Shown here: positions 6,281 through 12,144 of the stretch, one piece after another | Layout of the letters: every line of letters begins with the position of its first letter | Numbering within the stretch: the stretch's first letter is position 1 | Source: Thermofilum uzonense | GTDB lineage: Archaea > Thermoproteota > Thermoprotei > Thermofilales > Thermofilaceae | Assembly: GCF_000993805.1 (NCBI RefSeq) | Contig: NZ_CP009961.1 | Coordinates: 1,048,714-1,112,713 of the forward strand | Reading direction: 5' to 3' | Length of the DNA stretch: 64,000 nt | Program-made: the position numbers and the translations under genes | The notes under the pieces: generated by a model | Databases searched by the model: none | The model's input: only the letters and a program-made list of their open reading frames with translations | What the model was told of the DNA's origin: nothing

Positions 6281-7507
6281 ATGCGTAGAACTTCGTTCAT
6301 AATTTTTGTGATTATACTCGGTCTCCTTCTGGCTGCTCTCAGTAAAGCACAACCAGAAAGTGTAGCTGTAGTAGAGATCCATGGCGGTATTGATGAGGGG
6401 AAAGTTTACCTTGTAAAGAAGGGCTTATCCATTGTCAACGGGGGCATTCTCATACTGGTAATTGATAGTTATGGAGGCTACGTCAAGTCCATGGACGAGA
6501 TAATCTCTCTCCTCAAGACCTGCCAGTGCAGAACCATAGCTTTCCTGCCTCCAGGCTCTAAAGCCGTCTCAGCAGCCACCGGCGTAGCGCTAGCAGCCTC
6601 AAAACTCTATGTCGGTGACGGCGCAGTCATTGGAGCATGTAAGCCAACACCGTCAAATGACAAGACAGAGGCCTATATGATTTCGAGGTTCACTGGGCTT
6701 CTTGAAGAGAAAAAGATCCAAAAGCCTGATCTACTTGCCCGTGAACTCGTCATAGAAAATAAAGCGTTTACCGCGAGGGAGGCGTTAGATTTAGGCCTTG
6801 CAGACGCGAGGGCAGGGAGCCTCGGCGAGGTATTAAGGGCGGAGGGTCTTGAGGGATTGCCTATCTCATACCTCAGAGACGATCTGGTCAGCGAGGCGCT
6901 CTCTCTTTTAATAGATCCTGGTATTGCGCTCCTCTTGGCTGTCCTAGGAGTACTTCTACTAGCACTGGAGTTCCATGTTACGGGGTTTCAGGGATGGGGT
7001 GTGATAGGGGGCGCCCTTATTTTAACGGCACTTTACACGTTCAACCTAATCGGGATCAACCTTTATGCATTTTTACTCGTTTCACTCGGCGTAGTGCTTA
7101 TCCTCCTTGAGCTCTTCAAGCCGGGTATACAGGTCTTTGGGCTTAGCGGTGGACTTCTAGTCGGTATTGGGATTGCTGTTGAATACTATACTCAGCCCTA
7201 CCATGCTCTCTCATCATTCACTGTAACTGCACTAGTCCTGTTGGGATTAATTGGAGTCTTTATAGCCCTCATAATCTACAAGGCTTCTCAAACCCTCGGG
7301 ATGAAGACGCTAAGCCTTGAGGAGAAACTCATAGGCAAAACGGGTTACGCGAAAACAGGAATAACACCCGGAAAGAGAGGAGTAGTATATGTAGAGGGAG
7401 AGGATTGGACAGCAGAAAGCGACGATGAAATACGAGAAGGACAGAGAATAATTGTAGAAGCTGTGAGGGGCCTCGTTCTAAAGGTGAGGCCTGCGGAAAG
7501 CAAATAA
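6281..7507 (+). CDS. NfeD-family membrane serine protease (ClpP class)
   Basis: A 408-residue protein. A signal-like first helix (residues 5-22) is followed by an extracytoplasmic ClpP/crotonase-like domain. Its nucleophile is probably Ser97 (AVSAATG) and its base Lys128 (SNDKTEAYM); both are inferred from the layout of the Pyrococcus PH1510 protease. Residues 210-330 contain four or five membrane helices. The last 70 residues are the NfeD OB-fold domain (LIGKTGYAKTGITPGKRGVVYVEG). These proteases cleave stomatin near its C terminus. The stomatin gene follows after 26 bases, the classic two-gene operon, which strengthens both calls. Confidence 0.88.
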   Translation: MRRTSFIIFVIILGLLLAALSKAQPESVAVVEIHGGIDEGKVYLVKKGLSIVNGGILILVIDSYGGYVKSMDEIISLLKTCQCRTIAFLPPGSKAVSAATGVALAASKLYVGDGAVIGACKPTPSNDKTEAYMISRFTGLLEEKKIQKPDLLARELVIENKAFTAREALDLGLADARAGSLGEVLRAEGLEGLPISYLRDDLVSEALSLLIDPGIALLLAVLGVLLLALEFHVTGFQGWGVIGGALILTALYTFNLIGINLYAFLLVSLGVVLILLELFKPGIQVFGLSGGLLVGIGIAVEYYTQPYHALSSFTVTALVLLGLIGVFIALIIYKASQTLGMKTLSLEEKLIGKTGYAKTGITPGKRGVVYVEGEDWTAESDDEIREGQRIIVEAVRGLVLKVRPAESK

Positions 7508-7533
7508 AACAGTACCCCCGTGTATGTTTTGAT

Positions 7534-8406
7534 ATGGGTCCCCTCTCTGTTTTCTTAGCCTTTGTAGTCTTGATAGTCTTTGCCAGCATAATAGCCTCGA
7601 GTATTCGTATAGTTCCAGAGTATCAAAGAATAGTTGTTTTAAGGCTTGGAAGAGTAGTAAAGGTCGCGGGTCCAGGGCTCGTGCTGCTAATTCCTTTCAT
7701 CGATAGAGGTATAGTTGTCGATCTTCGAGAACAATATATAGAAGTCACGAAGCAGACTTGCATCACGAAGGATAATGCTCCCGTAGACATCGACTTCCTC
7801 ATATACTTCAGGGTCATAGACCCGACGAAAAGCGTGGTAGAAGTATCCGATTTTAGGGGGGCGGCTATAGGTATAGCTACCACAACTTTACGTGCAGTCG
7901 TCGGCGATATTGACCTAGACCAGGTTCTGGCAAAACGGGAGTACATAAACGAGGTGCTCCGTGAGAAGCTCGATGAAGTGACAGCAAGGTGGGGCGTCAA
8001 GGTGACAGCCGTAGAAATACGTGAAATAATACCTCCACGGGAGGTTCAAGAGGCTATGATTAAACAGATGTCCGCCGAGAGGAACAGGAGAGCCATGGTA
8101 ACCGAGGCTGAAGGAAAACGTGAAGCAGCCATACGTGTGGCTCAGGGAGAAAAGGAGGCGCTCATCCTCAAAGCGGAGGGCGAAAAACAAGCAGCTATAC
8201 TAAAGGCGGAGGGTCAGGCCCTAGCCCTGCGCTACGTTGATGAGGAAGCTAGAAAACTGGACTCGAAGACCGTCCTCCTACAGTACTTTGGAGCGCTCGA
8301 GGCGATAGCATCTTCCCCATCTACAAAGATAGTGCTTCCCATGGAACTCTTCAAACTACTTGGGCCCCTTCAGGAGTACTTCGCTGGGAAGAAAGAAGAT
8401 AAATGA
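7534..8406 (+). CDS. Stomatin/prohibitin (SPFH) family membrane scaffold
   Basis: A 290-residue protein. One N-terminal membrane helix (residues 5-25) leads into a full SPFH domain (IRIVPEYQRIVVLRLGRVVK, then PVDIDFLIYFRVIDP, up to about residue 190). An Ala/Glu/Lys heptad-like coiled coil follows (TEAEGKREAAIRVAQGEKEA and repeats to about 240), with a short hydrophobic C-terminal region. SPFH proteins oligomerise into ring or cage assemblies on membranes and organise microdomains. The partner protease NfeD lies directly upstream. The bactofilin gene converges on it with a single-base gap. Start ATG; no surprises in length or motifs. Confidence 0.92.
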   Translation: MGPLSVFLAFVVLIVFASIIASSIRIVPEYQRIVVLRLGRVVKVAGPGLVLLIPFIDRGIVVDLREQYIEVTKQTCITKDNAPVDIDFLIYFRVIDPTKSVVEVSDFRGAAIGIATTTLRAVVGDIDLDQVLAKREYINEVLREKLDEVTARWGVKVTAVEIREIIPPREVQEAMIKQMSAERNRRAMVTEAEGKREAAIRVAQGEKEALILKAEGEKQAAILKAEGQALALRYVDEEARKLDSKTVLLQYFGALEAIASSPSTKIVLPMELFKLLGPLQEYFAGKKEDK

Positions 8407-8407
8407 T

Positions 8408-9091
8408 TTATTTTTCCTGTATTACCTCTCCTTGAACCTCGCCTTCTATTCGTGCCTTACCCCTCAGGATGATACGCCTGGCACGCACAGGCGCCTTCAC
8501 AGTCACATTGTAGATAGTGACCTCCTCAGCATCTATCTTTGAAGCCTCAAGGACAGGCACATCTCCTCCTGAAAGCAACTTGATAAGCTTCACCACACCA
8601 TACTTTTCAGCCGTCTTGACCTCAAGCTTCTTAACTGAGACCTCCCCAACCTTTGACTCGTCAGACAGATTCAGCACTAAATGTTCCCCCTCCGTCTTAC
8701 CCAAGATACGGATACCCCCCTCAATTCTAGCGAAGGTGAACGTTAGACAGCCGATAGAAATCCCACCGGTTAATAGTGCCTCCTCCGCCTCTAGACACCC
8801 CATAACCTTTAAAGCGCCGGCAGAGCTAACCCTTTTAGCCTTAAGAGAGCCTAGCACTTTAACTGCTCCCGCCAGCTTCGCCTCGACTGCAACTACATTC
8901 CCACTGAAGACCGCGGAGCCAGCCACACTCACCCTCTCGGATTCTACGTCGCCTTCAACCTTCCCCGCCCCGCTTATCTTAATCTCCTGATAGTATCCGC
9001 CGTTAGCCTTTCCAGCCCCCGAGATGCTGAGACTTCCTCTTCTTTTTTTCCCACTCAAGGCTGACTCGTACGAGTCGAATAACTCGCTCAT
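8408..9091 (-). CDS. Bactofilin-like polymer-forming protein
   Basis: A 227-residue protein built of short repeated beta turns: SISGAGKANGGYYQEIKISG, then AGKVEGDVESERVSVAGSAV, then AGAVKVLGSLKAKRVSSAG and so on. This is the right-handed beta-helix of the bactofilin (DUF583) family, which forms filaments without nucleotide. The small Gly/Ala/Ser repeats run from about residue 18 to 110. The second half continues the strand pattern with larger residues. The N terminus MSELFDSYESALSGKKRRG is charged. It is the last gene of a four-gene operon (ArsR-like regulator, membrane/coiled-coil protein, micro-ORF, bactofilin) with gaps of 2 bases or overlaps, so its products likely act together at the membrane. 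Confidence 0.75.
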   Translation of the reverse strand: MSELFDSYESALSGKKRRGSLSISGAGKANGGYYQEIKISGAGKVEGDVESERVSVAGSAVFSGNVVAVEAKLAGAVKVLGSLKAKRVSSAGALKVMGCLEAEEALLTGGISIGCLTFTFARIEGGIRILGKTEGEHLVLNLSDESKVGEVSVKKLEVKTAEKYGVVKLIKLLSGGDVPVLEASKIDAEEVTIYNVTVKAPVRARRIILRGKARIEGEVQGEVIQEK

Positions 9092-9093
9092 AA

Positions 9094-9225
9094 CTAAACA
9101 CCTGCCTTCTCGAATATTCTCTTTATCTCTTCAAGAAGCTCCCTTATCTCCTTAAGCCTCTTAAGCACAAGCTCCTCAACCTCTTCATCGCTGAGTTCCA
9201 CATACTTCAGCTCTTTTTCACTCAA
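9094..9225 (-). CDS. 43-residue charged helical micro-protein
   Basis: Too short for an ordinary ORF scan. Reading from a TTG at 9225 gives MSEKELKYVELSDEEVEELV and onward to IFEKAGV, then TAG. The peptide is strongly amphipathic and acidic/basic, with a predicted helix over residues 12-38 (KRLKEIRELLEEIKRI) typical of a coiled-coil partner. The TTG overlaps the TGA of the upstream membrane/coiled-coil gene (TTGA at 9222-9225), and the bactofilin ATG follows 2 bases after its stop. Such tight spacing with an open frame argues for a real gene translated by coupling. The function is unknown; bridging the membrane protein to bactofilin is a guess. Confidence 0.6.
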   Translation of the reverse strand: MSEKELKYVELSDEEVEELVLKRLKEIRELLEEIKRIFEKAGV

Positions 9226-9596
9226 ACCCCCATCCCCTCCTTCAAGATATCACGTATCTCCTCGAGCTCCTTCTTGATCGCGTCAAGTTCTTCAAGCATT
9301 GCGCGCTGGCGTGCACGATAAGCTAGGATCTTCTTCTCTGTTTCTCTCATTTTGAGCTCAATGCCTCGGTCGCCCACTTCCTCTAATGGTTTTACAAGTG
9401 TGAAAACTAGACTGAAGAAGCCTAGCGCCGCACCAGACAGGATACTTAGAGCCGCCACAACACCACCAAAAAGCGGGTCAAGGGTTCGGGCGGATACACC
9501 TTTTATAACTTCGAGAGGAATATAGAAGACTAGAAGGGCTACAAGCCCCAGCATCAGTACAAAAACTACTATGTTACTCAGCTTCAAGTTTCTCAC
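9222..9596 (-). CDS. Two-helix membrane protein with cytoplasmic coiled coil
   Basis: A 124-residue protein, probable GTG start (MRNLKLSNIVVFVLMLGLVA). Two membrane helices at about residues 8-30 and 42-70 are followed by a charged helix from residue 75 to the end (LKMRETEKKILAYRARQRAM and LDAIKKELEEIRDILKEG), predicted to form a coiled coil in the cytoplasm. I do not recognise a named family. It overlaps the ArsR-like gene by 23 bases upstream and the micro-ORF by 4 bases downstream, so it is firmly in the bactofilin operon. A plausible role is membrane anchor for a bactofilin polymer; this is inference. Confidence 0.6.
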   Translation of the reverse strand: MRNLKLSNIVVFVLMLGLVALLVFYIPLEVIKGVSARTLDPLFGGVVAALSILSGAALGFFSLVFTLVKPLEEVGDRGIELKMRETEKKILAYRARQRAMLEELDAIKKELEEIRDILKEGMGV

Positions 9597-9879
9597 CCAT
9601 CCTCTTTAAAAGATCAGGTGAAACCACTATTTTGAACTCTGTAAGAGAGTAGACCTTCTTGGGGCGAGGACCTGGGACTATTTCTCCCTTTATAAAGCCT
9701 GTTCTTTCCAGTAGGGAAACATGAAGGTGTGTAAGCGGGTATGAGAGCCCTAGAAGTTTCGAGAGCTCATATGCATGCCTTGGCTTTACAGCTATTAGGG
9801 AAAGCATCTTTAAACGTATAGGGTTTGCAAGCACTTGTAACACCTCTGCGAGTTCTTCGATTTTATATTCATGTGCCAT
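9574..9879 (-). CDS. ArsR-type winged-helix transcription regulator
   Basis: A 101-residue protein from the ATG at 9879 (MAHEYKIEELAEVLQVLANP). The open frame reaches 10017, but a strong minus-strand TATA box (9901-9915) sits between, 29 bases before this ATG, so the shorter form is right. The fold is a typical ArsR winged helix: LANPIRLKMLSLIAV, recognition region YELSKLLGLSYPLTHLHVSL, and wing GEIVPGPRPKKVYSLTEF. No metal-binding ELCVCD motif is present, so it probably senses something other than thiophilic metals. First gene of the bactofilin operon and a likely autoregulator. Confidence 0.8.
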   Translation of the reverse strand: MAHEYKIEELAEVLQVLANPIRLKMLSLIAVKPRHAYELSKLLGLSYPLTHLHVSLLERTGFIKGEIVPGPRPKKVYSLTEFKIVVSPDLLKRMGEKLEAE

Positions 9880-9900: not shown

Positions 9901-9915
9901 AAACTTATATATAAA
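9901..9915 (-). promoter_or_regulatory. TATA box of the ArsR-bactofilin operon
   Basis: Read on the minus strand, ATTTATATATAAGTT is centred 29 bases before the ATG at 9879. It fixes the start of the regulator gene and implies a leaderless message. Confidence 0.6.
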
Positions 9916-10048: not shown

Positions 10049-10837
10049 CTACGAGAGAGAATACTTCTTCAAAACTTCCAAGTGAGAGGCCCCACCATGA
10101 ATAATCTCCATTAAGGCTTTGACAACCCTGTCAGGGCTCTCATGTTGAAATATATTACGCCCGATCGCCGCACCGGCAGCACCAGATTTCACGGCTTCCT
10201 CGACCTTGGAAAGAACTTCACTCAGTGGAGCCTTTGATGCGCCGAGAACAACCACAGGCACCGGTGTTTTTTTCGTAACGATGGAAAAGTCACTAGCGTA
10301 AACGGTCTTCACTATATCAGCGCCGAGCTCTGCTGCTATTCTAGCCCCGTATGCCACGACCTCTGCATCTACACTGGTAAAGACAGGAGGTTTGGGAACC
10401 ACCTCTGCCATTACCGGTATGCCTAGGGGTTCTGCTTCTTCGACCACTCTGGCTAGTTTCTCCCAGAGCATAGACTCGTTTCTACTTCCCGGATATATCA
10501 TGACGCTGACAGCGTCCGCTCCCGAATAAACGGCGCGTGCTACCGAGGAGATAAGCCTATCATCGGTTTCGTCTTGGCTTCGCGTCGTCCCGGTTCCATC
10601 TATCCTGGCTACTACAAAAACGTTGGACAAAAGCTCATGGTATCTTTGGATCATGGCAGGAGTAAGCATCACAGCATCCGGCCGCCCCTCTAAGACCTTT
10701 TCCAGCGTAGAAGCCATGTCCTCGATCCCCGGTATCGGCCCATGCCGTCGCCCGTGGTCAAGGGCAACAATGAGAGCCCTGCCGTCCTTGAAAAGCCTCT
10801 TAATCCTTATCTTTTTCCCCGGGCTCAAGGTTCCCAC
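10049..10837 (-). CDS. DhnA-type class I aldolase (fructose-bisphosphate aldolase family)
   Basis: A 262-residue TIM-barrel protein with a GTG start. The family markers are ALIVALDHGRRHGP (Asp27), the RIDGTGTTRS strand, SVMIYPGS, and the probable Schiff-base Lys177 in DIVKTVYASD, followed by a phosphate-binding VVLGASKAP and GAAIGRNIFQ. The family covers archaeal class I fructose-1,6-bisphosphate aldolase, ADH synthase (AroA') and LsrF-like thiolases. Sequence alone does not decide among them. It overlaps the cyclophilin-like gene by 13 bases and is the third gene of an operon with a sugar-isomerase-like protein, so catabolism of an unusual sugar phosphate is as likely as glycolysis or gluconeogenesis. 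Confidence 0.8.
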   Translation of the reverse strand: MGTLSPGKKIRIKRLFKDGRALIVALDHGRRHGPIPGIEDMASTLEKVLEGRPDAVMLTPAMIQRYHELLSNVFVVARIDGTGTTRSQDETDDRLISSVARAVYSGADAVSVMIYPGSRNESMLWEKLARVVEEAEPLGIPVMAEVVPKPPVFTSVDAEVVAYGARIAAELGADIVKTVYASDFSIVTKKTPVPVVVLGASKAPLSEVLSKVEEAVKSGAAGAAIGRNIFQHESPDRVVKALMEIIHGGASHLEVLKKYSLS

Positions 10838-11217
10838 TCTACTCGCACTTTCTCCCCACTCTTTACCTTTTTAAGGAGGGTGAGGTCTCCGACGATCTTC
10901 CCAAAAACATTTACGGGGCTAGCTGGCCTAATCTCACCTCTCCTGCTTGCTGGTGTTGGGCCAAAGAATAAGCATAGAGCGTCCCCGGGTGGCCAGTAAG
11001 CTACGTCACCCTTCTCAACAACATCGGAGCCTACTTCCTGACCAATGCTAACAGGGGTTGAGAAGTAGATTTCATCCCCCCAAAGATGAACTCTACTCTC
11101 AAAGGGGGTTGCCTTTATAATGGCCTCAGCAGTCTTGGGATTCTTCCCAGTAAGCTCTACCTCTACGACCCCTATGCTCTCAGGGAATATTATTTTAAGC
11201 TTTCCCGTCTCAATCAC
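10825..11217 (-). CDS. Cyclophilin-like fold protein (PF04126 type)
   Basis: A 130-residue protein, GTG start. It has the short cyclophilin-like beta barrel pattern seen in archaeal PF04126/TM1367-type proteins: NPKTAEAIIKATPFESRVHLWGDEIYF, then DVVEKGDVAYWPPGDALCLFFGPTPAS, then SPVNVFGKIVGDLTLLKKVK. Related folds in DUF3830 proteins occur beside sugar or amino-acid catabolic genes. True prolyl isomerase activity is doubtful because the Arg/Phe active-site set of cyclophilin A is absent. It sits between the isomerase-like gene (3-base gap) and the DhnA aldolase (13-base overlap), so it belongs functionally with them. Its ligand is unknown. Confidence 0.72.
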   Translation of the reverse strand: MIETGKLKIIFPESIGVVEVELTGKNPKTAEAIIKATPFESRVHLWGDEIYFSTPVSIGQEVGSDVVEKGDVAYWPPGDALCLFFGPTPASRRGEIRPASPVNVFGKIVGDLTLLKKVKSGEKVRVEWEP

Positions 11218-11220
11218 CCC

Positions 11221-12144
11221 TTAAAAAACTAGTTTCGCGAATGCCGTATATAGAACGCCTTTCGCAGCCTCTACAACTTCCCTCCAGTGCTGACCCTCTT
11301 CAGGTTTCACCTCGAAGCCAATAGCGCCCACATAGTTTATCTCGTCTAAAACCTTGAGAAGATGAGAAACCTCCTCGACCCCGTTTATAGCTCCGGGCCT
11401 GTAGAAGCCTGGGTGCCAATCCATTAGCTTTCCGTCGGGTAGTTTCTTGGTACAGCCTATATGAATGTGAGATAGATAGTTTCTTGCGATCTTTAGGTCT
11501 TCAGGGCTCTCTCCCAACATTGGAGCGTGGCTGAGATCCCAGAGCAATCCAATATTATTGTACTCCTGCCTAACCTCCTCGACAACACTCACAGCCTCAC
11601 GAATCGGACCAATGAGTTGTCTTTTGTCCCAGTCTCGGTCGAAGGTCTCTAAGATCAAGCTAACCCCTAGTTTCGAGCTGAAAGCTGCGAGCTCTTTAAG
11701 GCTCTTGACTAATGAATCTTTAGCGGCTTCCCTGTTATCTGACCCAGGATCCGCTCCGCTAGAGAAACCCACCTTCCTTACACCCCTTTCAGCCGCCTTC
11801 CTGATTGCCTGAGACAGGGCTTCAACAGCCTCTTTCCTTTTTTGCTCAATTATCGAGGCAGGGTTGTAACCCTGTGCTGTGGTCATGGGTTGTAAGCCAA
11901 TTGCTAGGTCGACACCCGAGTTCTTGATCACAGGTTCGAGCTGGCGCCATATATCGTCGCTTAAAAGGTTCACCTCGATCATGTCGAAGAACGGGTCATT
12001 CGTGAGAACACGTATAGCCTCGAGAGAGGACTGCAAATCATTTTTCATTAGGAGCGGATGGGCCATAAATGCGACGATGCTAACCTTCCAGGGGAAGGGG
12101 ACAGCATGAATGTATCTCCCTTTTTTAGAGAGAACTGCGAACAT
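11221..12144 (-). CDS. Sugar phosphate isomerase/epimerase (xylose-isomerase-like TIM barrel)
   Basis: A 307-residue protein of the AP-endonuclease-2/xylose-isomerase-like barrel superfamily. Metal-site segments are visible: LILETFDRD (Glu), LLWDLSHAP (Asp and His), HIHIGCTKK (His) and GFEVKPEEGQ (Glu near the C terminus). These together form a divalent metal pocket for ketose/aldose isomerisation or epimerisation. It starts the three-gene operon with the cyclophilin-like protein and DhnA aldolase, and its start lies 60 bases from a divergent AEC transporter. I infer a small uptake and catabolism unit for a sugar or sugar acid. The natural substrate is not deducible. Confidence 0.82.
   Translation of the reverse strand: MFAVLSKKGRYIHAVPFPWKVSIVAFMAHPLLMKNDLQSSLEAIRVLTNDPFFDMIEVNLLSDDIWRQLEPVIKNSGVDLAIGLQPMTTAQGYNPASIIEQKRKEAVEALSQAIRKAAERGVRKVGFSSGADPGSDNREAAKDSLVKSLKELAAFSSKLGVSLILETFDRDWDKRQLIGPIREAVSVVEEVRQEYNNIGLLWDLSHAPMLGESPEDLKIARNYLSHIHIGCTKKLPDGKLMDWHPGFYRPGAINGVEEVSHLLKVLDEINYVGAIGFEVKPEEGQHWREVVEAAKGVLYTAFAKLVF

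Follow-up and report, generated by a model that had tools for sequence, protein, structure and literature searches.

A conserved archaeal set of an ArsR-type regulator, a two-helix membrane protein, a microprotein and a bactofilin-like protein as a possible membrane-linked transcriptional relay

The stretch of Thermofilum uzonense DNA analysed here, called the window below, covers 64,000 nucleotides (NZ_CP009961.1, positions 1,048,714 to 1,112,713) of a genome that consists of a single contig of 1,611,988 bases. Four minus-strand genes lie at 8408-9879 and, as originally predicted, overlap or nearly touch. The first (9574-9879, ATG at 9879) encodes a 101-residue regulator with an ArsR-type winged helix. 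It is followed by a GTG-initiated gene (9222-9596) for a 124-residue membrane protein with two predicted transmembrane (TM) helices and a coiled tail, by a TTG-initiated micro-ORF for 43 residues (9094-9225), and by an ATG-initiated gene (8408-9091) for a 227-residue bactofilin-like protein predicted to form a beta-solenoid. The successive junctions are a 23-nt overlap, a 4-nt overlap and a 2-nt gap. A longer, TTG-initiated frame for the regulator reaches up to 10017, and the alignment of relatives begins at the ATG at 9879. Situated 24 nt before this ATG, a TATA-like box (9904-9915, minus strand) points to a probable leaderless promoter; of the 13 family-f1 loci shown, 11 have a similar box when read by eye. 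A search by eye upstream of arsR established no conserved operator.

On the far side of the set, NfeD and slipin genes (6281-8406) converge on the bactofilin gene, with the end of the slipin gene 1 nt away. Both are convergent neighbours in five loci of the genus, and neither was found adjoining the set outside it; they were rejected as members of the unit. Upstream, positions 10049-12144 encode a DeoC/LacD-type aldolase (Pfam), a 130-residue protein and, judged by eye, a TIM-barrel-like protein, a block that is kept with the set in the genus and lies near it at locus L036.

The regulator scores 23.2 bits against the Pfam family HTH_5, above the cut-off of 22, and its profile matches solved ArsR-family proteins, the best being 2p4w (E=5e-15). 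Against the PadR profile it reaches 19.3 bits, below the cut-off of 27, whereas HTH_5 scores higher and passes its own cut-off. The protein shares the HTH_5 winged-helix domain with the ArsR/SmtB metalloregulators but differs from them in its score against NCBIfam HTH_metalloreg, 30.9 bits where the cut-off is 55, and in having no cysteine. Cysteines, counted here only as a test for a metal site made of them, are likewise missing from 12 of 15 regulator proteins, and a metal-sensing ArsR protein was rejected on these grounds as the simple reading.

No Pfam family above its cut-off, and no NCBIfam family at its cut-off, accounts for the membrane protein. Its original description as a two-helix membrane/coiled-coil protein is correct: hydropathy gives two hydrophobic segments in all 15 relatives, with a positive N-terminal side in 14. 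The predicted helices of the window protein comprise residues 9-27 (9516-9572, minus strand) and 46-64 (9405-9461, minus strand). Alignment A2 has 12 invariant columns, every one of them in the conserved tail, residues 93-121 (9234-9320, minus strand). For 15 of these membrane proteins, 20 families were listed at E<=0.1, none of them HAAS/DUF1700. At one locus, L140 (4908-5600), regulator and membrane protein form a single 230-residue frame, and no microprotein was found. This arrangement could be a natural fusion; decay or a frameshift is as likely, because the microprotein was not found there and other copies in the same genus are damaged.

The micro-ORF is a genuine gene. Alignment A1, of 16 sequences, has a mean column identity of 62%, and at E<=0.01 the microprotein profile matches 31 of the class's 81 genomes, in 29 cases strongly. 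Across the phylum sample, 48 of 398 genomes match at this threshold, 33 strongly and the other 15 only weakly (E>=0.001), so that presence is patchy, with 365 genomes lacking a strong match. Between the window and locus L029, dN is lowest for the microprotein (0.136), followed by the regulator (0.207) and the membrane protein (0.280), and is highest for the bactofilin (0.593); in the two of three pairs with unsaturated dS, the microprotein's dN/dS is 0.07-0.08, indicating purifying selection.

The C-terminal helix of the microprotein (residues 19-41; 9103-9171, minus strand) resembles the tail of its membrane-protein neighbour. In Thermoproteota, the two C-termini align by hhalign over 23 columns at 95%, a likeness that repeats of L, I, E, K and R within a helix can also show without common descent. 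Thirteen of 15 tails outscore the best of 3000 shuffled tails against the microprotein, and in 17 of the 33 strong genomes of the phylum search the neighbouring tail appears as a further, weaker match to the microprotein profile. Asgard microproteins have no significant likeness to their own membrane-protein tails (hhalign, 5.6%). An origin of the microprotein as a copy of the tail would be a good account within Thermoproteota and not within Asgard archaea.

The fourth protein of the window falls just short of the bactofilin family PF04519 (27.4 bits; cut-off 27.9). All 15 relatives match that family at E<=0.01 (best 3.5e-13), and the profile of the bactofilin-like proteins matches the solved bactofilin 6ria at E=2.7e-4; used as a query, the window protein matches 22 of 61 relatives. 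Its AlphaFold2 model (pLDDT 89.8) predicts a beta-solenoid core with strands through residues 18-226, a short N-terminal helix (3-13) of low confidence, and a loop that is poorly predicted around 164-169. Foldseek returned only weak matches to the model, and VIA-align aligns it to other beta-helix proteins, for example tapirin 6n2c (Z 15.8, rmsd 2.5, 196 residues). Between them, these fold searches listed beta-helix enzymes, a tapirin and an antifreeze protein, with no bactofilin row, and settle no family. The window protein has no match to Toastrack (DUF4097) at E<=1, and one of 15 relatives matches at E=0.0013.

Two features stand out in the linked bactofilins. An FDxYE-type N-terminal helix (9053-9085, minus strand) is specific to operon-linked members: the pattern [FLMY][DERK]xY[EYLMKT], picked after viewing the linked sequences, occurs in 21 of 22 linked bactofilins, in all 10 short fourth proteins examined (11 are known) and in none of six usable unlinked bactofilins, including L021, which is cut at a contig end. 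In three contig-edge copies it was found by peptide. The count leaves out unlinked L020 and L026 (wrong-strand frames), L022, L024 and L028 (no row), and L094 (absent from the short-gene list). The single miss is the degraded 48-residue copy at L046 (7098-7244), which lies beside an intact regulator, membrane protein and microprotein and reflects either natural loss or a sequence error. The second feature is a loop that interrupts the predicted solenoid (residues 160-181; 8549-8614, minus strand), a low-confidence part of the model that is hydrophobic and basic in most relatives. In 16 of 22 proteins, the window's own not among them, the bulkiest 11-mer lies in this loop, and in 20 of 22 the loop has a net positive charge; the Kyte-Doolittle maximum falls there in only nine of 22.

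In families f9 and f13, presumably Thermoproteales, the fourth protein is shorter, about 150-175 residues where intact, and has no bactofilin match in Pfam. It carries the N-terminal motif and is predicted to form a solenoid from residue 59 onward; a fold search returned nothing above noise. Comparison of the bactofilin with this short protein by hhalign gives 59.7%, over the C-terminal parts only, and we therefore do not claim homology between the two as shown. Set against the bactofilins and halofilins described in PMC12364344 and PMC12186497, the window protein is alike in its predicted beta-solenoid and in the PF04519 matches of its relatives, and unlike in the operon-specific N-terminal helix, in the interrupting loop, and in being encoded with a regulator, a membrane protein and a microprotein.

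The gene order is widely conserved. We assembled 36 Thermoproteota loci with the microprotein, and all four genes occur in order in 34, so the arrangement is not unique to the window. Regulator and membrane protein are each found in 35 loci, the former missing at L040, which begins at a contig end, and the latter not in one frame at L092; all 36 have the fourth gene or a part of it. In 30 loci the start of the microprotein gene touches or overlaps the gene before it, and in 33 the fourth gene begins no later than 3 nt after the microprotein gene; these distances use the earliest start of each frame, so some overlaps are overstated. Furthermore, all 33 phylum-sample genomes with a strong microprotein match have the membrane protein. 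The membrane-protein profile matches 35 of 398 genomes and a broader profile 36, 34 of them strongly, namely the same 33 and the genome with the fused, microprotein-free copy at L140. Weak matches (for example G311, G345, G032 and G575, and four matches in long frames from the Asgard search) were not counted as members. With the order found elsewhere and the micro-ORF conserved, the original observation therefore stands. Literature searches, with most subscription papers beyond reach, found no published description of the set.

ABC ATPase and/or ABC-2 permease genes adjoin the set on the same strand at 17 of the 36 Thermoproteota loci, in seven of 12 families, a count that includes L093, where they are displaced by an insertion, and L089, where only a permease was seen. 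They lie downstream in f2, f42, f15, f49 and one f1 genus, and upstream in f13 and f9; no adjoining exporter occurs in the window's own genus. At L093, a 401-residue frame on the other strand, transposase-like by eye, lies about 0.8-2.0 kb before the microprotein and parts the ABC genes from the set. The window genome (1.6 Mb) has 55 ABC ATPase domains, from which, with about 1700 genes assumed, a chance neighbour is estimated in a few percent of loci. By mutual scores, the linked ATPases fall into three or more types. They match ABC_tran, and several match DrrA1-3_C, as DrrA-type ABC-2 exporters do; no such gene belongs to the window's operon, the linkage being confined to other genomes.

A Thorarchaeota record surfaced in the search, and the 195 genomes of its phylum, which we take to be the Asgard archaea, were searched. 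Eight of them encode a regulator, a membrane protein and a microprotein of 40-50 residues together. The membrane protein was found in 11 genomes at E<=0.001; the broad profile matches nine at E<=1e-4, eight strongly, and was built with seven of those eight proteins, so that G495 is the only new strong match. At seven loci the regulator precedes the membrane protein and a frame of 40-45 residues follows it in every case, five of these frames lying below the first microprotein profile and being recognised by position; the eighth, L166, has a regulator, a membrane protein and a 50-residue frame. Profiles of the two groups agree, with hhalign giving 95.5% over 41 columns for the microproteins and 98.6% (E=1e-15) for the membrane proteins. 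No bactofilin frame was found in seven Asgard stretches of 5-12 kb, and ABC-2 exporter genes, read from the sequence, lie upstream in six of seven loci. In a tree of regulator and membrane protein, whose root is arbitrary, the seven Asgard rows form one clade with support 100 on a long branch, a pattern that makes recent transfer unlikely. At L153, L155, L156 and L157, carbamate-kinase-like and FdhD-like genes (by eye) come next, on the other strand.

Several readings of the set were weighed. That the micro-ORF is non-coding and the gene order accidental has practically no chance of being right: we found no point in its support, and the matches across the class, the column identity, the low dN/dS and the recurrence at 36 loci rule it out. 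A second reading makes the set an accessory of ABC-2 exporters, in which the ArsR-type protein would sense a small molecule directly and the other proteins would be structural helpers of the exporter, with no signalling. The linkage at 17 of 36 and six of seven loci speaks for it, as do the DrrA-like C-terminal domains of several ATPases. However, 13 of the 14 loci in the window's family showed no ABC gene adjoining the set (a few end at contig edges), the ATPases are of several types, unlike a fixed subunit, and most regulators lack the cysteines of a metal site; we consider this account fairly unlikely.

The original prediction had drawn from the regulated set an inducible membrane-linked filament. 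In its fullest form this would be a cytoskeleton whose job is cell shape, with the bactofilin as the polymer, the two-TM protein as its anchor, the microprotein as an assembly factor and the regulator in control of the amount. The fold and family of the bactofilin fit this idea, no Thermoproteota microprotein locus lacks a fourth gene for a bactofilin or a short solenoid-like protein, and in Haloferax the archaeal bactofilins called halofilins help to shape the cell (PMC12186497). Against it, the trio occurs without a bactofilin in the scanned Asgard loci, the fourth protein of f9 and f13 has no detectable bactofilin match, the bactofilin evolves fastest of the four, and ABC exporter linkage recurs; we regard it as unlikely. 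What survives of the prediction is that the genes are a real, conserved unit, comprising a regulator of its own, a membrane protein, a microprotein and a protein of bactofilin type. That a bactofilin system lies at its heart is not supported, given the trio without a bactofilin in the scanned Asgard stretches, the f9/f13 protein with no detectable bactofilin match and the recurrent exporters.

With ABC-2 neighbours recurring and no bactofilin beside the trio in the scanned Asgard stretches, the core of the set has the look of a membrane-linked transcriptional relay. Our tentative preference, held with less than full conviction and short of calling it probable, is that the four genes encode such a relay, with the winged helix, the two-TM protein and the microprotein as its core and the bactofilin as a scaffold, which looks like an addition in Thermoproteota or a loss outside them. 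The coiled tail of the membrane protein, cytoplasmic in the topology we infer, may sense the condition of the membrane, or that of an exporter within it. The microprotein, helical like the tail, could join the same bundle and relay that state, and the regulator, released or held accordingly, would control its own operon. The bactofilin would serve as a submembrane beta-solenoid scaffold that enters the complex through its FDxYE helix, its loop probably touching the membrane. Where present, the linked ABC-2 exporter would be the likely effector. In favour of this reading are the constant company of microprotein and membrane protein, the likeness of the microprotein's helix to the tail, the motif confined to linked bactofilins, the Asgard trio and the recurrent exporters; what weighs against it is the patchy presence of the set, the weak likeness of the Asgard pair, the absence of an exporter in the window's genus and the failure to establish an operator.

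By analogy, this putative relay may work like its nearest published counterpart, the bacterial HAAS-PadR-Toastrack stress cassettes, in which, as PMC11237479 proposes, HAAS-PadR and Toastrack beta-helix proteins are submembrane and relay stress signals to a winged helix. The cassettes described there and the window's set share a free-standing winged-helix regulator that is encoded next to a helical signalling protein, often with a TM link, and to a beta-helix protein of the cytoplasm; some Toastrack operons also contain ABC genes. Unlike those cassettes, the window's set is archaeal, has an ArsR-type rather than a PadR-type regulator and no matched HAAS domain, and combines a bactofilin-type solenoid, in place of Toastrack, with a separate 43-residue helical protein. 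HAAS-PadR identity was rejected, given the missing HAAS match and the PadR score below cut-off, and the resemblance is one of layout.

More speculatively, and with a low probability in our estimation, the protein of about 43 residues may be the signal carrier of an archaeal membrane-to-promoter relay that predates the Thermoproteota/Asgard split; the bactofilin would have been plugged in within Thermoproteota, so that transcription reports on the condition of a submembrane polymer, and ABC-2 exporters would serve as interchangeable effectors. Some hosts of the set are cultivated hyperthermophiles, so tests are feasible. With its regulator and membrane partner, a protein this short, conserved from one archaeal family to another and still identifiable in Asgard archaea, makes a small, testable system. 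If the bactofilin sits in the regulator's circuit, the archaeal cytoskeleton and gene control would be directly coupled, a link comparable to the one proposed for bacterial beta-helix (Toastrack) proteins in PMC11237479.
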